Position numbers and translations under genes: made by a program
Source: Candidatus Omnitrophota bacterium
Lineage (GTDB): Bacteria; Omnitrophota; Gorgyraeia; Gygaellales; Profunditerraquicolaceae
NCBI GenBank assembly: GCA_903907475.1
Contig: CAIVOB010000022.1
Location: forward strand, 1 to 11,240
Direction: 5' to 3'
Length of the DNA: 11,240 nt
Notes under the pieces: generated by a model
What the model was told of the DNA's origin: nothing
What the model saw: only the letters and a program-made list of their open reading frames with translations
The model's database searches: none
Shown: piece after piece, positions 2,105 through 11,240 of the stretch
Numbering within the stretch: position 1 is the first letter of the stretch
Layout of the letters: each line of letters opens with the position of its first letter

Positions 2105-3819
2105 TATTCAACTCCTAAAGTTGTAGAGAGAATCTCCTCAAGTGAAGTAATACCGCTTTCCACTTTTTTAATCCCGGACTCGTAAAGTGTTTGCATTCCC
2201 GCCGCGCGGGCAGCATCCCGGATCTTTTGCGCTGTCGCACGCTGATTAATCATATCCTGAATTTCTAAAGTTATGGGCATCACCTCAACAATACAAGTTC
2301 TTCCTTTATATCCGGCATTATTACATTTGGCGCAACCTTTAGGCCGATAAATTAACTCCGCTTTAACGCTAGCACCCTTAAGCTGCGCTGCCGTAGGCTC
2401 ATAGGCCTCTTTACAATCTGGACATAACTTACGTACCAATCTTTGCGCGATAACAATTAATAAAGACGGAGCCAGCATATACGGCTCAATTCCAATATCC
2501 ATTAAACGGCTGACGCAAGTCGGAGCGTCATTAGTATGTAAAGTACTTAAAACTAAATGCCCGGTCAAAGCGGAACGAATACAAATCTGCGCGGTTTCTA
2601 AGTCGCGCACCTCACCGACGAGCATAATATCCGGATCTTGGCGCAAGAAACTGCGCAATGCTGCCGCAAAAGTCAAACCCACCTCCGGTTTAATCTGCAC
2701 CTGATTAATCCCATCCATTTTATATTCCACCGGATCTTCAACCGTAACAATATTTTTATCCGGGCTTTTAATCTCATTTAAAATCGCGTAAAGCGAAGTT
2801 GATTTTCCGCTTCCAGTAGGGCCGGTAATAAAAACTAAACCATAGGGAGAAAAAATCGCTTTGCGCACCTGTTCTAATTGTTTGGCGTCAAAACCCATAG
2901 AACTTAAGTTTAAGGTTGTGCCACCCCGATCCAGAATTCTCAAAACTGCCTTCTCCCCGTAAATCGTCGGAATAATTGAAACACGGATATCAATCGGCCG
3001 TTCATCAATGCGCACCAAGATTGCCCCATCCTGAGGTAATCTTTTTTCTGCGATATCTAACTTCGCTAAAATTTTTACTCGGGAAACAATCGGTAAATGC
3101 AAATGCTTTACCGGAGGGGGTATTTCGTAAAGTTTACCGTCAATCCGATAGCGCAAAGAGATGCGATCCTTAAAAGGTTCAATATGAATGTCGGAAGCCC
3201 GCTCATCAATCGCTTGACGAATAATTAAATCCACTAATTTTACCACCGGAGCTTCTTCCGAACGGGCAATGAGCTTATCTAAACTCAACTCTTGACCGTT
3301 ATCTTCCTGGCCCTGAGTAATAGAAACATTAATATCATAACTCGAATCGACCGCATTTTGCAACATCGCGGATTTACCATAAAACTCCTGTGTCGCTTTC
3401 GTAATATCCGGACGCGTGGCAATAATCGGATTAATTTCACAACCGGTAAGTTTTCTCAGGTTATCAATTAAAATAAGGTCTAAGGGATCCGCCATCGCTA
3501 CAGTTAATGAGCGCAAAGTACGCGAAAGTGGTAGCACGGCATTTTTCAAAGCAAACTCTTGAGGAATAAGCTGTTCTAATCCCTGCTCAATCGCAGGCTT
3601 AAGCATTCCGGTCCCTAATGAAAAATAAGGCATATTCAGCTGCTTACCCAAGACCGCAACCATCTGATCTTCTTGAATCATCCCCATTTTCACGAGGATC
3701 TCGCCCAGACGGCCACCCTCCTGCCTTTGCACGACAATAACTTTCTCAAGCTGGTTGGCAGTAATCAAACCTTCGCGAATAAGCAATTCACCTAATCTAA
3801 GATACTTTTCTTTTACCAT
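2104..3819 (-). CDS. pilB: Pilus/secretion assembly ATPase (PilB/GspE family)
   Basis: This 571-residue secretion ATPase is complete. Residues 1-150 form an MshEN-type N-terminal domain (starting LGELLIREGLI, with a second LGEILVKMGMI copy at 38-48), known in relatives to bind cyclic-di-GMP or contact partners. The motor follows: Walker A GPTGSGKST (333-341), Asp box TVEDPVEY (359-366), Walker B DIMLVGEVRD (397-406) with Glu403 as likely catalytic base, and His box STLHTNDA (425-432). A tetracysteine zinc motif is intact (Cys466, 469, 496, 499), which separates PilB/GspE from PilT. Just after the zinc motif the usual GRTGIYE reads GRTCIVE, a small deviation. The protein works as a cytoplasmic hexamer under PilC, powering pilus extension. 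It starts 3 bases after the secretin stop with no clear ribosome site, so it is probably translated by coupling. Confidence 0.95.
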   Translation of the reverse strand: MVKEKYLRLGELLIREGLITANQLEKVIVVQRQEGGRLGEILVKMGMIQEDQMVAVLGKQLNMPYFSLGTGMLKPAIEQGLEQLIPQEFALKNAVLPLSRTLRSLTVAMADPLDLILIDNLRKLTGCEINPIIATRPDITKATQEFYGKSAMLQNAVDSSYDINVSITQGQEDNGQELSLDKLIARSEEAPVVKLVDLIIRQAIDERASDIHIEPFKDRISLRYRIDGKLYEIPPPVKHLHLPIVSRVKILAKLDIAEKRLPQDGAILVRIDERPIDIRVSIIPTIYGEKAVLRILDRGGTTLNLSSMGFDAKQLEQVRKAIFSPYGLVFITGPTGSGKSTSLYAILNEIKSPDKNIVTVEDPVEYKMDGINQVQIKPEVGLTFAAALRSFLRQDPDIMLVGEVRDLETAQICIRSALTGHLVLSTLHTNDAPTCVSRLMDIGIEPYMLAPSLLIVIAQRLVRKLCPDCKEAYEPTAAQLKGASVKAELIYRPKGCAKCNNAGYKGRTCIVEVMPITLEIQDMINQRATAQKIRDAARAAGMQTLYESGIKKVESGITSLEEILSTTLGVE

Positions 3820-3936
3820 AAATTAATTCTTTTTGCTGAATTTATTCATATCAACGTTAATAAGATAATCCCGGCTGCTGACCATCGGCATCCCCTGTTC
3901 TCTTATTGGCAGCTGCAGATTCTTCATTTCCGGGAC
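3814..3936. repeat. Internal copy of a 123-base exact direct repeat
   Basis: This segment is identical, base for base by eye, to 11118-11240 at a constant offset of 7304. It covers the last 37 codons of the secretin gene, the 3-base gap and the ATG of the ATPase gene. Here it lies in its natural operon context, with both genes intact across the boundary, so this is the original copy. The base before it differs (3813 T against 11117 A). The match runs to the window edge, so its real length is unknown. Confidence 0.95.
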
Positions 3937-5400
3937 TTTCGGTTCAACTTTATCCTTTATAATCCGCGGGGTAATAAAGATTAAGAGCTCCCGCTGTTTA
4001 TTCTTTTCCGGAGAAGAAGCCGTGCCGCCTTTATGCCGAAAAAACATTCCTAGCACCGGAATATCTCCTAAGAACGGAAGCTTACTCGTATTCGCGGTAA
4101 CTTCATCACGAATCAATCCGCCCAGGACCACCGTCTCCCCGTCTTTAATCCGCACCACGGATTTAGTACTGCGCTCTTCCGGATCACGGAAGGTATAATC
4201 TTGGCCGGCACTGGTAAAAGTATTACCGGTCACCGCTTCGGCTACTTTAGGATAAACAAACATTGTAATCTGGCCGCTTTCAAGATCGATCTGCGGAGTA
4301 ACCCTTAAGATGACACCGGTTTCCGTACGCTCAGCTTCAGAGGTAATTTCACCGCTTGAGCCTCCAGCAGAAGAAGTAGTCGTAATCACGCCGATTGATT
4401 CATTGGTCGCGATGCGCACCTCGGCAGTTTCATTATTCAAGGTTAAGATTTTCGGCCGGGCTAAAAATTTTGTATCCACCTGCGTTCTTAAAAAATCTAA
4501 CTTTATATCATATTCACTGCCTGTAGGATTAATGGAAAGATTCCCTAACCCTTTATTAAAAAGCTTGGCAATACTGCCATAAGGAAATCCCGTGGCCGCC
4601 GTCGCCCCGGTAATAATCGCGGTCAGCGGAGTAGAGCCGAAATCAAAACCTAAAGCATCAACCGCATTTTTACTCACGTCTAACATTTCCACTTCTAAAA
4701 GCACCTGCGTGGAAGGCACGTCTAAAGAAGCAATCACCTTCTTAATCACCTCCATCTTCGCCGGACTATCAGTAACAATTAAACTATTGGTCCTATAATC
4801 TTCAATCACCGAACCGGTAGCGGAAAGTAACTTCTTAACCGTCGCGGTAATTCCGCTTTCTTCAGCAGATTTCCATTTACCGCTCTCACTCCCGCCGCTA
4901 CTGCTAGAAGCGCTAGAACTAGAAGATCCACCGCTAGAACCACTACCAACTGTAAAATCAGCGGCATTTCTGAGCTGATTTGACATTTCTTCTTTAATCG
5001 AACTGGAAGATACCGAAGCGTGCCTTAAATAAAAAACCTGGGTCACGGTTTCGGCTTCCATCTTGCCCCAATCTTTAACGATAAAAATATTGGCTTTTTT
5101 ATCTAATTCATAAGTTAAATTATTAGCACTAAAAATCTTATTCATCGCCTCGCTTAAAGGCACTTTGTCCAGATAAAGCGTCACCGTGCGGTCTTGAACG
5201 GCTTCAGAGGCGATAAAATTTAATTCCGCCTGGATAGACAAAGCTTTGAGAATATTTTTCAAGCTCGCATCCTGGAAATCCATGGAGATCGTGCGCTCGG
5301 TATCGCCTAAATCCGGTAAACCTTGAGCATTAAGACGCGGGATAAAAAATACCGCCATTAAAAAAACTAGCACTCCTAAAGTAATAAATGTCTTTTTCAT
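3823..5400 (-). CDS. pilQ: Outer-membrane secretin (PilQ/GspD family)
   Basis: I place the start at 5400 (MKKTFITLG), giving 525 residues. It has an excellent AGGAGG ribosome site at 5405-5410 and is followed at once by a signal peptide ending near LNAQG (residue 26). A longer frame reaching back to 5550 overlaps the preceding gene and would bury that signal. Residues 36-112 form the N0/STN domain and about 119-230 an N1 secretin fold, interrupted by a Ser/Gly tract (152-174). The C-terminal half is the pore-forming domain: TKFLARPKILTLNN (310-323), VVLGGLIRDEV (424-434), LPFLGDIPVLGMFFR (441-455) and LLIFITPRII (472-481). The family forms a 12-15-subunit channel for the pilus or substrate. 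Only two N-domains are seen, fewer than in classical GspD. The gap after the PilP-like stop is 16 bases. The last 37 codons are duplicated at the right edge of the window. Confidence 0.93.
   Translation of the reverse strand: MKKTFITLGVLVFLMAVFFIPRLNAQGLPDLGDTERTISMDFQDASLKNILKALSIQAELNFIASEAVQDRTVTLYLDKVPLSEAMNKIFSANNLTYELDKKANIFIVKDWGKMEAETVTQVFYLRHASVSSSSIKEEMSNQLRNAADFTVGSGSSGGSSSSSASSSSGGSESGKWKSAEESGITATVKKLLSATGSVIEDYRTNSLIVTDSPAKMEVIKKVIASLDVPSTQVLLEVEMLDVSKNAVDALGFDFGSTPLTAIITGATAATGFPYGSIAKLFNKGLGNLSINPTGSEYDIKLDFLRTQVDTKFLARPKILTLNNETAEVRIATNESIGVITTTSSAGGSSGEITSEAERTETGVILRVTPQIDLESGQITMFVYPKVAEAVTGNTFTSAGQDYTFRDPEERSTKSVVRIKDGETVVLGGLIRDEVTANTSKLPFLGDIPVLGMFFRHKGGTASSPEKNKQRELLIFITPRIIKDKVEPKVPEMKNLQLPIREQGMPMVSSRDYLINVDMNKFSKKN
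4879..4947 (-). repeat. Low-complexity Ser/Gly codon tract in the secretin gene
   Basis: Residues 152-174 of the secretin are almost only Ser and Gly. The DNA contains the hexamer CTAGAA four times within about 40 bases (plus strand, in the stretch about 4903-4940), so it is an imperfect short repeat that could slip in replication. It sits inside the N1 domain, where other secretins have a disordered loop of variable length. Confidence 0.8.
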
Positions 5401-5416
5401 TCTAATCCTCCTCTTA

Positions 5417-5968
5417 TTAACGTAAATTAACCATCGGGATAGTTCCCGGTTCAGGCTTATTCCCCTGAGGAAACCTGGCCACCGGAGCAGCAGTCCCAAC
5501 TGGCGCATTATTATTGGCCGATGCAGTAGCAGCTCCCGCTCCTGGAGCAAGTAGGCTCACTACTCTTCCGGAAAATCTTAAAACAATTTCATCTTTATTA
5601 ATACTCACAATTTCTCCACCATCTAAAGTATCACCGACGGTATAAACCTGTTTATTAATCAGCGCTTGAGGAATCCTCCCGCCCCAAATGATTCCCTGGA
5701 CCACAAATTTACTTAAATCCGGCAGTGGTTCTTCATCTTGCGCCACGACCACCGGAGCATCAACTTTTGGGAGGATTAAAGTCCGAAAAGGATCGCGTAA
5801 CTGCTGCGATTCATAAACTACCGTCGGACGTTCAATCACCAGCTCTTTTTTACCCGACTCGCTGAGGAGCTCTTCAGCTTTAGTCATTGCCCAAGAAACA
5901 GCAAAAGGATAAGCTATCAGCGTGAAAAGAAAAATCCCGAAAATTATTTTTCGCCCGTGTCTTATCAT
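5417..5968 (-). CDS. PilP/GspC-like periplasmic linker protein
   Basis: This 183-residue protein has one N-terminal membrane segment or uncleaved signal (about 8-27). A periplasmic part follows with RDPF at 58-61 and a small beta domain (VVQGIIWGG, 89-97, through GEIVSINKDEIVLRFSG, 118-134). The R-D-P-F motif before an HR-type beta domain reading Q-G-I-x-W is the hallmark of PilP and GspC proteins, which dock onto the N0 domain of the secretin and join it to the inner-membrane subcomplex. The last 40 residues are an Ala/Pro/Asn-rich tail, probably disordered. There is no lipobox, unlike classical PilP, so it is anchored by a transmembrane helix as in GspC. The start lies 2 bases after the PilO stop and has no obvious ribosome site, suggesting coupled translation. 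The gene directly precedes its expected partner, the secretin. Confidence 0.8.
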   Translation of the reverse strand: MIRHGRKIIFGIFLFTLIAYPFAVSWAMTKAEELLSESGKKELVIERPTVVYESQQLRDPFRTLILPKVDAPVVVAQDEEPLPDLSKFVVQGIIWGGRIPQALINKQVYTVGDTLDGGEIVSINKDEIVLRFSGRVVSLLAPGAGAATASANNNAPVGTAAPVARFPQGNKPEPGTIPMVNLR

Positions 5969-5970
5969 CT

Positions 5971-6498
5971 TTAAAGGTAAGAAATAGTGCTTAAAGTTAA
6001 ATTGACGTTAAAATTCATTCCCGCGATATTCCGGCTTTGATCAATGCCGCTAGCATCAACGCTTACCGCATCTACTAAAAAAATATCTTTTTGACTTTCG
6101 ATTTGGCTGATAAATTCCCCCAAAGCATGATAGCTTGGGATATTGATTACAATCGTAAATGAAGATTTTAAATAATTCTCAAAATTCTCTTCCCGGCCGG
6201 GCTTAATGGAAACAACTTTGACATCATAATTTTTGGCAATCCCAGAAACCTTATCCATCACCGAACTGACATCTTTTTTCACAAAAACTTTTCGATAACC
6301 TTCCAGAGTATCTTCTAAACCTGCGATACTCTGCGTCATATCATTCTTCTTTAACTCATCCTGTTTTTGCTGATTTAAAGCATTAATCTCAAGCTGCGCG
6401 GATTGATAAAGCCGAAAAGCAATAAATAAAGCCAAAATAATAATCCCTAAATTAACAATTTGATTTTTATTTTTGCTAAAAAACTCAAATTTATCCAT
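5971..6498 (-). CDS. pilO: PilO-like inner-membrane alignment protein
   Basis: I place the start at 6498 (MDKFEFFSK), giving 175 residues. A longer frame back to 6585 would overlap the preceding gene by 86 bases and add an Arg/Trp-rich, non-conserved stretch, whereas the ATG at 6498 follows a GGGGGAG ribosome site and sits one base after the upstream stop. The protein has a short cytoplasmic N-terminus, one membrane helix (14-31), a coiled-coil-like stretch (32-72, rich in Gln, Lys and Asp) and a ferredoxin-like periplasmic domain (about 75-175, including VSIKPGREENFENYL and IPSYHALGEFISQIE). That is the standard PilO/GspM architecture. In the family, PilO pairs with PilN and PilP in the periplasm. 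Here its PilN partner is the C-terminal half of the upstream fusion protein. Sequence conservation in the family is low, so the call rests on architecture and position. Confidence 0.85.
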   Translation of the reverse strand: MDKFEFFSKNKNQIVNLGIIILALFIAFRLYQSAQLEINALNQQKQDELKKNDMTQSIAGLEDTLEGYRKVFVKKDVSSVMDKVSGIAKNYDVKVVSIKPGREENFENYLKSSFTIVINIPSYHALGEFISQIESQKDIFLVDAVSVDASGIDQSRNIAGMNFNVNLTLSTISYL

Positions 6499-6499
6499 G

Positions 6500-8053
6500 C
6501 TATTTTTTCTCCCCCGCACTCTTGCAGGAAATCGTAAATACCGCCACGCTTTTTCCCTGCACCATACCGCGATCCAAAGAATCAATCGCCAGTTTAGAAA
6601 AATACTTTAAAAAATCCGGTTCGTTCTTTAAATTGTTTAAGAAAGTATTCACCGCTTCAAACTCCTGTTGGCTGTCTGCCAAATAAGCCTGCCCTTGCAG
6701 CATTAACTCTAAAACCCCGCCCGGTTTTTGATTAAAATCAAGCCGGCTTAACCAAACTCCTTCCGGAATCGCCCGCGGCACAATACTTAAAGGATAAGTC
6801 GCGTAAAGCTGATTTTTTACTAAAGCATCTAAAACCTGAATCTTCTTTTTATCTTTAGCGTCTAAAGCATTCAAGCTCTCGTAGCTATCATCGGTAAGAA
6901 CGGTGTTAATTTTAATACGTTTATTTTTAATCCCGGAAAGCTCCTCCTGCAAAGGCTGAGTACGAATTAAACGGTAACCAAAAACCAGAGCACAAATGAC
7001 AATCCCTAAAAAAATAAATCTAAAATCCAACCTAAAATCTTCTAAGAAAGCCAATGGGTTAACATTTACTCCGCTGGCGACAACCTTGGCAGCTTTAAGC
7101 TTCGCCCCTACTAAATTAATTTTAATCTTTAAGGCACTAGCTTTAAAGAGCGCGGCAGAAAAACTTTTCGCAAAGACCGAGGAATAAACCACCGCTTTAC
7201 CGAAAGCTTTTTGAGTGTTCACGAATTTAGCCGCCAAACCCGCTTCCGCAAAGAACCCTTCCAGCTCCTGACGGCTATCGAGGTCAGAGATCACAAAAAT
7301 ATTCTTAATATTCTTATCCGGAAATTTACGCTTATAATAATCTAAAGAAACCCGAATTTCATTTTTAAGTTTGTCCTGTTTTTGAGCACGGCCGCTTTGA
7401 GCCAGTTCTTCAAACTCTGCCGGAGCCGCTTCTAAAACAATATCCCGGCTAAAAAGCGGAAAACCATTTTCAAAAACCGTGAAATTCGCCTCATCTTCAC
7501 TGTTTAAATCAAAATTTAAATTAGCGATGACCCCGGAATCACTGGCGCCGGTTAATTTTAAGAAACGTAACATACTAAAAGCCGAATACTCTAAAGCATC
7601 GACTTTTAAGTTTAATTGTTTGGCAATCGCGACGTAACTATTTAGAATCTCTTTCTTAATCCCCACAAAAAGCACTAAATTGGTTTTATTCTTGGCATTA
7701 GGCAGGACCTGAAAATCGTAATCCAAATCCTCAATCTTAAAAGGAATGTATTTTTTAACCTCAAAGTTAATCGCACCTTTGAGCTCGTTATGCGGCAAAG
7801 CGGGAATTTCAAAAGTCCGGATGACCATATCCTGGCCGGAAACACAAAAAACCGCTTCCTGAGCATTAATGCGGTAGGTGCGCAGAGCATCTTTTAAGAG
7901 CACGACCATCTTCACATCTCCGGGAACCTTCTCTTCAAGCTCCGACAAAGCAGCGCTCGGATGCGGCAGGCGGATGTTGTTGATGATTTTTTTTCCGCTG
8001 GCCTCTACCAGGTTAATATCCTTAATCCCGAAATAGATCCCTAAAGCGTTCAT
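6500..8053 (-). CDS. pilM: PilM-PilN fusion, pilus inner-membrane scaffold
   Basis: The 517-residue protein joins two parts usually made separately. Residues 1-300 resemble PilM, an actin-like cytoplasmic protein (LGIYFGIKDINLVEA at 4-18; FEVKKYIPFKIEDLDYDFQVL at 97-117 is the typical PilM core). Residues 308-517 resemble PilN: an INLV motif (312-315) where PilN has INLLP, a membrane helix (346-362), then a periplasmic ferredoxin-like domain (about 425-515). In separate systems the INLLP peptide of PilN binds a groove in PilM; here the two are tethered, as in GspL of type II secretion. The usual GIDIG-S phosphate loop reads GIYFG-I, so ATP binding may be weak or lost. The start has GGAG at 8061-8064 and overlaps the helix-turn-helix gene by four bases (ATGA). 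GspL is the main alternative name. Confidence 0.87.
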   Translation of the reverse strand: MNALGIYFGIKDINLVEASGKKIINNIRLPHPSAALSELEEKVPGDVKMVVLLKDALRTYRINAQEAVFCVSGQDMVIRTFEIPALPHNELKGAINFEVKKYIPFKIEDLDYDFQVLPNAKNKTNLVLFVGIKKEILNSYVAIAKQLNLKVDALEYSAFSMLRFLKLTGASDSGVIANLNFDLNSEDEANFTVFENGFPLFSRDIVLEAAPAEFEELAQSGRAQKQDKLKNEIRVSLDYYKRKFPDKNIKNIFVISDLDSRQELEGFFAEAGLAAKFVNTQKAFGKAVVYSSVFAKSFSAALFKASALKIKINLVGAKLKAAKVVASGVNVNPLAFLEDFRLDFRFIFLGIVICALVFGYRLIRTQPLQEELSGIKNKRIKINTVLTDDSYESLNALDAKDKKKIQVLDALVKNQLYATYPLSIVPRAIPEGVWLSRLDFNQKPGGVLELMLQGQAYLADSQQEFEAVNTFLNNLKNEPDFLKYFSKLAIDSLDRGMVQGKSVAVFTISCKSAGEKK

Positions 8054-8324: not shown

Positions 8325-8555
8325 GGTTTTTTTTATCTAAACTTACTCAGACTTACTTGCCATAAAAATGCTTCGATCATCCGAGCCTCGCTACTCCAAT
8401 GTATTTTCAGTTAACTGGTCCTGTCTTGTGAGGAAAAATTTTACTTTCCGGGTCTTGCCACTGCGGCACCCTGTCGTGCTCGCTTATGGCTGCGCGCGAC
8501 AGGGGACCCGCCTCCGTGTCACCCGTAGATTAAAATTTTTCTAAAGTTAGCTTAC

Positions 8556-8807
8556 ACGGTAATGCAATTTGTGGTTTTTACGCGAATGTCGGTTTTAGCC
8601 AATGGAGCTTGAGTATTTTCGAGTATCCCGAGGCCGTCCGCATGGACGGCAATCTCGGGATGGCGATGCTGTTTGAGTCCTTCCCGCTAGAGCGGGATGG
8701 ACGAGTTCAGCAGCCACCGAAAAGACGAAAGATCATTGGCGTGCCCACTTATTGATGCTTTAAGGTAAAACCGACGCTGAGCGGAAAAACTACAAATTCA
8801 TTACCGT
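8556..8807. repeat. Long inverted repeat closing the right structured module
   Basis: The arms 8556-8579 and 8785-8807 are inverted copies, pairing over 23 positions with one single-base bulge (C8565) and one wobble. Inside, 8588-8597 and 8766-8775 are a second perfect inverted pair of 10 bases, and 8598-8604/8734-8740 a third of 7. Viewed as DNA, this is a roughly 250-base element with terminal inverted repeats and GC-rich internal palindromes, as in miniature inverted-repeat elements. No convincing target-site duplication flanks it. Confidence 0.8.
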
Positions 8808-8822
8808 AGATATAACTTGCTT

Positions 8823-8828
8823 TATAAA
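8823..8828 (+). promoter_or_regulatory. Possible -10 box before the secreted-protein gene
   Basis: TATAAA lies 35 bases before the ATG at 8863. The sequence 16-18 bases upstream is a poor -35 and is also part of the long stem (8799-8807). If used, this promoter would start the messenger downstream of the structured element and make that element independent of the gene. Confidence 0.25.
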
Positions 8829-8862
8829 TGTTCACCAAGTAAAATGTAAAAAAGGAGAAGAA

Positions 8863-10086
8863 ATGCCCACGAAAAAGATTATTGCGCTGCTCTTATTATC
8901 CACCATCCTCTTGTGCAATAATGTCTATGCTCGTGAACAAGTAACTGCCAGTATAGATAAGGATTCTTATGAATCATTTCAGAAAATAATAATTACTCTA
9001 GCTAATAACTCCTCTCTCCCTATTCTTTCTGCGCTCGGAGGCGATGATTTAATCTTTGAACAAAAAGACACCCAAGGCGCCTGGCAGGTAGTTGAACACC
9101 AATTTAATTGCTTACCTTCAGATTGCTATGATGATAAGGAGTACCTACCTCAAGAAATTAAACCTCAACAAGCAAGTAATCTAGACTGGGAGCCGCGAAT
9201 CTACCGCAACGGCTATTATCTCCTTCCTCCGGAAGGTATTTATCGGCTCAAGATTCTCTACCGCTTAGCGCGAACAGATAACCCGATTCAAGTACTGACA
9301 CAAAATTTTTTCATTAAGAATAGTTTAAAAGGCGCAATTACGTTGACACAAGTTTCGGCTTATCCTGAAGGGCCGGCGCGAATCAATACACTTAGCGCTA
9401 CAAATCCAGAAAGAGATCCCCTTGGACTTATTAAGGCTTTAACCTTCAAGGCAGACATCACTCTCACCCAAAGCGGCAATTATCTTATCTGTGGATCATT
9501 ATTTAACGAAGGAAAACAGGAAATTCAAACCATCAAGGTAGAAAAAGCCCTAGAATCCGGAACCTACAACTTCACCGGCAAGCTAGATTTAACCAATGTG
9601 CCCTGGTGGCAATATTTACCACCTTCAGCTTTTATCCTCACAATTGGCGACGCTAATGGGAAAATACTGGAAAAACAATGGCAGGCAGGCCAAAAATACC
9701 GCAAAGCGCAATATATAGGAAGCACCGTACAATTTATTCAGGATTGCTTGAATGATGAACTTACCGCTGACGGCAATCTAAAAATCTCGGGCAGAATTAA
9801 TATTTACCAAGCGGGGGACTATTTTATCCGGGCAACTCTTTTTGACCCTCAAGATGACCCCAATAAAACTAGTGGCAATGAAAGTAGCTATATCCAACCA
9901 CATTTAGTGGCCGGCGAGAACAAATTTGAAATTATCTTTCCCGAAAAGTTGTTGGCAATGAACAAAAGCACCGGGCCTTTTAAATTGCAATTAATTTGTA
10001 ATTTACAATCTGATGAAAGCAAAGGCGACCGCTGGAATACTAATTACATCACCAAATCTGATATCGCCAGCTTAACGAAAGAATAA
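8863..10086 (+). CDS. Secreted protein of unknown function with a duplicated beta-sandwich-like domain
   Basis: The 407-residue product starts with a signal peptide (MPTKKIIALLLLSTILLCNNVYA, cleavage after Ala23). The start is supported by AAAGGAG at 8851-8857. Residues 25-152 look like an immunoglobulin-like beta domain of the proteinase-inhibitor/macroglobulin-like kind: a SIDKDSYESFQKIIITLAN opening, then PPEGIYRLKILYRL before the end. Cys83 and Cys88 are close enough to form a disulfide. Two similar blocks follow, about 190-284 and 303-400. Compare LTFKADITLTQSGNYLICGS with LKISGRINIYQAGDYFIRAT, and the later SAFILTIGD with GPFKLQLIC. This matches a repeated extracellular module known from secreted bacterial proteases and surface proteins, but no catalytic motif is present. 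It probably acts in the periplasm or outside the cell, perhaps in binding or adhesion. It follows the structured element by about 20 bases and converges on the next gene with a 9-base gap. I do not recognise a named family. Confidence 0.85.
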   Translation: MPTKKIIALLLLSTILLCNNVYAREQVTASIDKDSYESFQKIIITLANNSSLPILSALGGDDLIFEQKDTQGAWQVVEHQFNCLPSDCYDDKEYLPQEIKPQQASNLDWEPRIYRNGYYLLPPEGIYRLKILYRLARTDNPIQVLTQNFFIKNSLKGAITLTQVSAYPEGPARINTLSATNPERDPLGLIKALTFKADITLTQSGNYLICGSLFNEGKQEIQTIKVEKALESGTYNFTGKLDLTNVPWWQYLPPSAFILTIGDANGKILEKQWQAGQKYRKAQYIGSTVQFIQDCLNDELTADGNLKISGRINIYQAGDYFIRATLFDPQDDPNKTSGNESSYIQPHLVAGENKFEIIFPEKLLAMNKSTGPFKLQLICNLQSDESKGDRWNTNYITKSDIASLTKE

Positions 10087-11117: not shown

Positions 11118-11240
11118 TACCATAAATTAATTCTTTTTGCTGAATTTATTCATATCAACGTTAATAAGATAATCCCGGCTGCTGACCATCGGCATCCCCT
11201 GTTCTCTTATTGGCAGCTGCAGATTCTTCATTTCCGGGAC
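11118..11240. repeat. Edge copy of the 123-base exact direct repeat
   Basis: The segment equals 3814-3936 exactly and runs into the window edge. It begins abruptly in AT-rich sequence upstream of the secreted-protein gene. The ATPase start codon is copied (11123-11121) but then reads M-V-Y-F-G-R-K and a stop, so no ATPase follows here. Either another secretin gene lies to the right or the edge is an assembly artefact. Confidence 0.95.
11127..11240 (-). pseudogene. Duplicate of the last 37 codons of the secretin gene, cut by the window edge
   Basis: On the minus strand this reads VPEMKNLQLPIREQG and on to FSKKN and a TAA stop, identical to residues 489-525 of the complete secretin. It starts in frame at the window edge, so whether the rest of a second secretin lies beyond cannot be seen. 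No ATPase gene follows it, unlike the intact copy. I list it as a fragment; it may be the true end of a paralogue or an artefact. Confidence 0.6.

Follow-up and report, generated by a model that had tools for sequence, protein, structure and literature searches.

The structured interval at 8350-8845 of the window (the whole stretch analysed, 11,240 nucleotides of a Candidatus Omnitrophota contig) is probably best explained as two non-autonomous mobile repeats, with the mechanism proposed below: unit A, a REP-like palindrome, and unit B, a larger folded element. The ends of unit B are well defined, its copies are numerous and share a single conserved fold, and there are signs of recent spread.

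Division of the interval into two repeats

The earlier note had described the interval as one unrecognised, highly structured element of about 400-500 bases. The structure is real: the + strand folded at -193.1 kcal/mol against a shuffle mean of -136.6 (z -9.08; none of 100 dinucleotide shuffles was as good), and the reverse strand gave a z of -7.6. The helices named in that note were also recovered, with 8588-8597/8766-8775, 8598-8604/8734-8740 and 8616-8621/8718-8723 corresponding to consensus helices 4, 5 and 6 of B, and 8566-8579/8785-8798 to the outer stem of the window copy of B. The statement that the interval matches no known large RNA class agrees with the Rfam 15 search: neither the window nor 16 related loci reached the gathering score of any family, and at E up to 10 there were four matches, all far under their gathering scores. 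A tRNA/tmRNA search of the window returned nothing usable. The single element, however, has to be divided, because A and B occur separately in other places and are thus two independently dispersed repeats. Its proposed limits, 8350 and 8845, lie outside both units: A-type likeness extends left to about 8409 in one match from the same genome, and B stops near 8807, with a single 25-base match (E 2e-4) further right.

Searching the genome of origin with the interval revealed 18 places, the window included. The 17 others comprise 13 A-type matches, one of which continues into B, and four that cover only pieces of B. A contig end lies at most 2 bases from the end of the match in 8 of these 17 places, as expected for repeats in a draft assembly, and copy numbers are therefore probably underestimates. 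Among relatives, 33 of 58 genomes searched (own included) matched the interval, some with A only and some with B only; the core of A was also found in relatives without B. The left edge of A varies among copies between 8409 and 8433. An A-type end motif was located within 70 nt of B in 15 of 87 B copies, compared with 10 of 159 control windows, which suggests that the A+B pairing seen in the window recurs, though only in a minority of cases. The coordinates of both units are collected in Table 1.

Two further features of the window were recorded. The last 123 bases (11118-11240) are an exact repeat of 3814-3936 and probably reflect an assembly-graph overlap where the contig ends. On the - strand, 3818-8053 appears on reading to contain genes like parts of type II secretion or type IV pilus systems.

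Table 1. Features of units A and B in the window. Paired cells and both-side changes refer to aligned copies of B; A1 is the alignment of 37 copies.
Feature	Position	Strand	Evidence or remark
Unit A, REP-like palindromic dispersed repeat	8421-8550	+	Fold, z -5.15; 13/17 other own-genome matches A-type; copies aligned
Unit A arms	8433-8453/8521-8541
Unit A inner GC hairpin	8469-8479/8494-8504
Unit A conserved core	8449-8527	+	Alignment of copies; A/T-rich flanks variable
Unit B, mobile structured element	8561-8802	+	Left end AAATGA-like, right end TTCATT; sharp ends, covariance model R1
P1 outer stem	8561-8570/8793-8802	+	Inverted repeat; 10/10 pairs with both-side change, 85% of cells paired; variable, compensated
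P2	8575-8578/8786-8789	+	Consensus fold
P3	8582-8583/8781-8782	+	Consensus fold
Tandem G.A/A.G loop 1	8584.8780, 8585.8779	+	35/37 in A1, 31/36 in second set
P4	8588-8596/8767-8775	+	97.9% of cells paired
P5	8598-8604/8734-8740	+	100% of cells paired; both-side change in 4/7 pairs
P6	8608-8622/8717-8731	+	91.8% of cells paired; both-side change in 8/12 pairs
Tandem G.A/A.G loop 2	8611.8728, 8612.8727	+	32/37 in A1, 25/36 in second set
P7 hairpin	8626-8632/8654-8660	+	99.2% of cells paired; both-side change in 6/7 pairs; tip length variable
P8	8661-8664/8713-8716	+	95.9% of cells paired
P9	8668-8671/8708-8711	+	90.1% of cells paired; no pair with both-side change
Tandem G.A/A.G loop 3	8675.8704, 8676.8703	+	33/37 in A1, 36/36 in second set
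P10 hairpin	8677-8687/8692-8702	+	11/11 pairs with both-side change, 85.9% of cells paired
Optional extra hairpin between P5 and P4	8741-8766	+	A1; few letters there in many copies

Ends and distribution of unit B

The two ends of B are sharp. Relative entropy is 0.00-0.10 bits per column outside the left end and up to 1.44 inside, starting at AAATGA, and beyond the right end TTCATT the base frequencies drop to background within a few columns. The outer stem formed by AAATGA and TTCATT constitutes terminal inverted repeats; in the window copy some of its pairs are broken and it lies partly in another register, reaching 8557/8807. When B was folded alone (8557-8812), the z was -11.4. The 103 nonredundant full-length copies have match lengths of 177-273 nt, with a median of 223.

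A covariance model of B, R1, was built from 29 copies and has 199 positions. Among 193 genomes sampled from the phylum Omnitrophota (own included), it detected B in 36, representing 29 of 149 genera, and all of the positive genomes belong to the class of the window. Copies per genome range from 0 to 12, with gaps within a genus; these are lower bounds, as scoring covered 12 candidates per genome. Only two places in the genome of origin pass E 0.01 with R1, one of them cut by a contig end. A 25-base pattern of B, which would miss divergent copies, was found in 57 stretches among 84,980 species genomes, of which 54 are titled Omnitrophota or Omnitrophica and three come from bacterial MAGs with no such title. 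The same pattern was absent from viral contigs, and no match to the element was found in plasmid and phage records. No account of a repeat like this in Omnitrophota appeared among the literature matches listed, although this does not prove that none exists. B is probably not protein-coding, to judge from core lengths that are not constant modulo 3; an ORF of at least 100 aa spans B in 20 of the 103 copies, and similar ORFs over B are common to six loci.

Conserved fold of unit B

Alignment A1 was made blind to structure, and RNAalifold predicted 58 pairs from it, 40 of them with at least one both-side change. The consensus fold was defined as the 69 pairs common to the folds of both strands, and it comprises ten helices. 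In A1, 92.3% of the cells at these positions are paired, compared with 39-47% in slid controls, and both-side changes occur in 47 pairs, compared with 21-24 in slid controls and a shuffle mean of 25.3. Cells with a both-side change numbered 307 against a shuffle mean of 84.8; none of these measures was reached by any of 500 shuffles. A second set of 36 other copies, some from genomes also represented in A1, was aligned without structure and was not used to define the fold. It gave 86.4% of cells paired (slid controls 40-47%) and both-side changes in 54 of the 69 pairs (slid controls 29-34). Covariation supports the fold; the both-side changes that slid controls also show were counted against the preferred explanation. 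Hairpins P7 and P10 vary strongly in sequence among the copies of A1. At loop 2, the Watson-Crick pairs UA/CG replace the G.A pairs in three of the 37 rows.

The strand that folds better is the + strand of the window. It is the more stable one in all 37 rows of A1, and in 36 of the 37 sequences of the second set plus the window, by 12.5 kcal/mol compared with 5.5 for shuffles. The wobble counts are mixed. In 75 near-neighbour comparisons there were 94 changes to or from G.U versus 52 for A.C, together with 194 double changes, 127 changes to other mismatches and 31 others. The corresponding counts in A1 were 39 versus 16 under the default structure and 58 versus 51 under the ribosum structure, and the second set showed no + strand wobble bias (GU 42, AC 46). 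The + strand preference of B rests more on the G.A loops and the folding energies than on wobble.

Genomic sites and alternative roles of unit B

An ORF of at least 100 aa is present on both sides of 82 of the 103 copies. With B taken as +, the flanking genes are oriented (-,-) in 47, (+,+) in 21, (-,+) in 7 and (+,-) in 7, and the excess of (-,-) over (+,+) has a p of 0.002, for copies that are not independent. B therefore lies mostly between codirectional genes and on the strand opposite to them. An upstream stop codon is at most 15 nt from B in 25 of the 47 (-,-) and in 2 of the 21 (+,+) contexts, or 27 of the 68 codirectional ones. No promoter-like conservation and no conserved hexamers were found in the 55 nt upstream of 101 copies, and the idea that B has its own promoter was dropped on the absence of such hexamers.

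These sites bear on whether B could represent a class of functional noncoding RNA in Omnitrophota, a trans-acting or protein-binding transcript of the + strand whose spread is incidental. We consider this unlikely. The conservation is indeed RNA-like, since both-side changes are frequent in A1 and in the second set, where the slid controls are lower; the three tandem G.A loops are retained, and both energy and near-neighbour changes favour the + strand. However, a conserved fold that leans to one strand is also expected of a folded single-strand DNA substrate. The lack of promoter-like conservation upstream also argues against the RNA, as does the mostly antisense position near the stop of a convergent gene. 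B was not found in 157 of the 193 genomes, its number varies from 0 to at least 12 with gaps within a genus, and copies in the same slot are mostly not orthologous by likeness.

The evidence on slots is as follows. B is found next to the same gene families in different species. In 12 such same-slot pairs the identity of the B copies is 63-88%, which is close to that of the gene end, whereas the other flank can hardly be aligned in 11. That flank can be aligned in L113/L151, and B is less similar than the gene in this pair and in L027/L107. For the 12 pairs, all between different species, the partner ranks first among the relatives of a copy in only 2 of 24 directions, and within the top three in 5 of them; the ranks span 1 to 68 of 102. 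Purifying selection at orthologous B sites was therefore withdrawn as an interpretation; such ranks suggest that insertion or conversion has happened repeatedly at favoured slots. The slot behind one gene, which reads as a metal-dependent hydrolase, was examined in 30 of 41 matching loci (the gene end was unreadable in 2 of the 30), and a profile search detected B or a remnant of it in 3. By eye, other loci showed at this slot A-type palindromes, a third repeat kind (own genome included), plain hairpins or nothing.

Two side observations concern these neighbourhoods. The third repeat kind was seen by eye directly behind the stop codon of this same gene in six genomes, the genome of origin among them (L258; G004, G007, G010, G019 and G020). 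Five B loci of one genome, G196 (L223-L225, L229 and L230), share another motif left of B, which presumably resembles a lac-operator-like palindrome.

The slots might suggest that the host retains the elements as interchangeable structures for 3' ends, stabilisers or terminators, with the fold selected at each site. B often touches the stop codon, one slot holds B, A-type palindromes, the third repeat or plain hairpins according to species (partly by eye), and the same-slot copies are about as similar as the gene end where the other flank is hardly alignable. Yet these copies are mostly not nearest relatives, so their similarity is no evidence of selection at fixed sites. Most neighbouring genes lie antisense to the + strand, and if a role in the 3' UTR were selected the - strand should fold better; in most copies it is the antisense strand that does. 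A plain hairpin would suffice for such a role, with no need for three conserved G.A loops. We regard this reading as distinctly improbable.

An attC-like recombination site, folded on its bottom strand behind a gene, shares with B the position behind stops, the single-strand fold and a folding strand opposite to the coding strand, but inspection of A1 revealed no conserved integron core boxes at the ends (judged by the motif as generally known), the nearest copies on one contig are several kb or more apart and form no cassette arrays, and the whole middle of B is conserved, which makes the identification very implausible. Hardly any weight can be given to a riboswitch-like leader: B ends about 60 bases before the ORF at 8863-10086 (407 aa), but this ORF, perhaps a species-specific gene beside repeats, had no match in 38 relatives, and B lies beside many unrelated genes, mostly on the opposite strand. 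With no constant gene linkage, the leader is refuted as a general role. The complex leader that the earlier note had offered for the interval is thereby rejected, for these reasons and for the missing promoter-like conservation, whereas its suggestion of a mobile inverted-repeat element is borne out by dispersed near-identical copies, sharp ends, recurrent insertion and target duplications in some copies. Its third option, a new noncoding RNA of Omnitrophota, is the reading considered unlikely above.

Movement of unit B and search for the mobilising enzyme

Movement of B is well supported by comparison of its copies. Two copies in G020 lie in different contexts and have a 230-nt identical run in common. 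G157 contains two groups of near-identical copies, and the likeness ends directly past the right end. Some copies of B sit in a 324-331-nt MITE carrier, which has 8-bp direct repeats and terminal inverted repeats reading GGTTC(A/T)TTCGTAA or nearly so. Carriers were found in G048 and G039 (family f6) and in the record UBA12090. Their 8-bp target duplication agrees at 8 of 8 positions in L101, L144 and L233, at 7 of 8 in L141 and L232, and at 5 of 8 in L129; the last base of the L101 carrier differs, and its end was placed by analogy. Two further carrier copies lack a recognisable left end, and no carrier without B was found among 13 matches in G048. B has one orientation relative to the carrier in L101, L141 and L144 and the opposite one in L129, L232 and L233, which suggests that it was inverted or inserted more than once. 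Inversion between its own terminal repeats inside the MITE is possible. The 93 copies outside carriers showed no convincing target duplication; the best of many settings gave 9 matching 3-mers where 2.1 were expected.

The ORFs within 4 kb of 64 B copies were clustered, and no transposase family was noticed by eye in the 25 largest clusters. Nor was any autonomous transposon with B ends noticed beside these 64 copies. Clusters found at three or more B loci appear to stem from neighbourhoods that the loci have in common, from ordinary household genes or from ORFs lying across B. Y1 transposase genes are widespread in the phylum, with 154 of the 193 genomes positive: 35 of 36 B-positive versus 119 of 157 B-negative ones (Fisher 0.002, kinship ignored). 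At 29 Y1 loci inspected (9 IS200-type and 20 others), B was nearby in one, in G040. This locus, L196 (G040:C1:874901-875550), has an IS200-type TnpA frame of 131 aa with no internal stop, about 79 nt downstream of B on the same strand. Another of the nine IS200-type loci, L203, gave a weak R1 match (E 0.011). None of the 20 other Y1 loci has B beside it (0/20), and a scan of them with short exact motifs only showed no A-type ends (0/20). A RAYT as mobiliser is suggested by presence in the genomes with B and not by position at the Y1 loci, and an IS200-type TnpA by the single adjacency in G040; neither candidate was retained. The reverse transcriptase family RVT_1 was found in 10 of 36 genomes with B and 37 of 157 without it (Fisher 0.67, from incomplete genomes) and not in the genome of origin, and retrotransposition was rejected as this enzyme has no association with B.

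Comparison with known repeats and proposed mechanism

A and B appear to belong, in a broad sense, with ERIC, YPAL and REP among the non-autonomous mobile repeats of intergenic DNA, and B is unusually structured for one. YPAL (RU-2) of Yersinia and ERIC (IRU) are small, non-autonomous, folded mobile repeats with proposed effects on neighbouring transcripts, and YPAL targets span or adjoin dyad symmetry, according to PMC2229807; families of such small repeats are enumerated in PMC2267715. In these features B is similar: intergenic, multicopy, stably folded and mobile. Its median of 223 nt exceeds the 127 and about 168 bp of the YPAL/ERIC kind. Unlike them, B folds into a branched structure of ten helices that conserves three tandem G.A loops, and was found in Omnitrophota. 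YPAL target duplications are reported to range from 3 to 26 bp, whereas B has no convincing duplication outside MITE carriers.

YPAL copies lie closely behind stop codons and over terminators. REP and BIME are mosaic palindromic intergenic repeats; A resembles REP, and Y1 genes are common in Omnitrophota. However, B is near only 1 of 29 Y1 loci and is far larger and more complex than REP. The MITE carriers, with their size, terminal inverted repeats and 8-bp target duplications, connect some copies to MITEs, but outside the carriers B is bounded by ends of its own and shows no such duplication, and it occurs in both orientations in carriers (3 and 3 of 6). The conserved multi-loop fold of B exceeds what most MITEs have. 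With attC sites B shares a folded bottom strand behind a gene; it differs in that no core boxes were seen on inspection, no arrays were seen and its middle is conserved, while that of attC is not conserved throughout. The large structured RNAs of Rfam 15 are similar to B in size and branched fold, and B has no match to them at gathering scores.

Under the preferred explanation of two mobile repeats, an enzyme supplied in trans would mobilise B after recognising it in its folded single-strand form, the + strand of the window. Single-strand DNA is more likely than RNA, because no reverse transcriptase was found in 26 of the 36 genomes with B and no promoter-like signal precedes B. The fold and the three tandem G.A loops would be conserved since a copy unable to fold could not move. 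After landing behind a stop codon, B would usually be co-transcribed as a stable 3' structure, which may stabilise, process or end the transcript, as has been proposed for ERIC and YPAL, and the host would tolerate it there. Some copies would travel inside the 324-331-nt MITE by ordinary transposition with an 8-bp duplication. Several points stand against this explanation. No mobilising enzyme was seen by eye near the 64 copies, Y1 genes are almost never close to B at the loci inspected, and bare B has no convincing duplication. The wobble counts of the second set, and those of A1 under the ribosum structure, hardly favour the + strand; selection for a 3' UTR role would predict the - strand to fold better; and the fold is more elaborate than in most MITEs.

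A more specific proposal, which we advance as a tentative one, is that an as yet undescribed enzyme system recognises B by its branched fold with three tandem G.A loops and moves it as a folded single strand, preferentially to sites directly behind stop codons; or, in the RNA version, that B is a mobile structured RNA of Omnitrophota.

Small mobile repeats are best described in cultured model bacteria. B combines an RNA-grade conserved fold with dispersal across one class of Omnitrophota, represented here by MAGs, and it recurs in the same post-stop slots. The more than 100 covarying copies provide a natural set for asking what a transposition enzyme reads in a folded strand. B is also a warning that strong covariation alone is no proof of a functional RNA.
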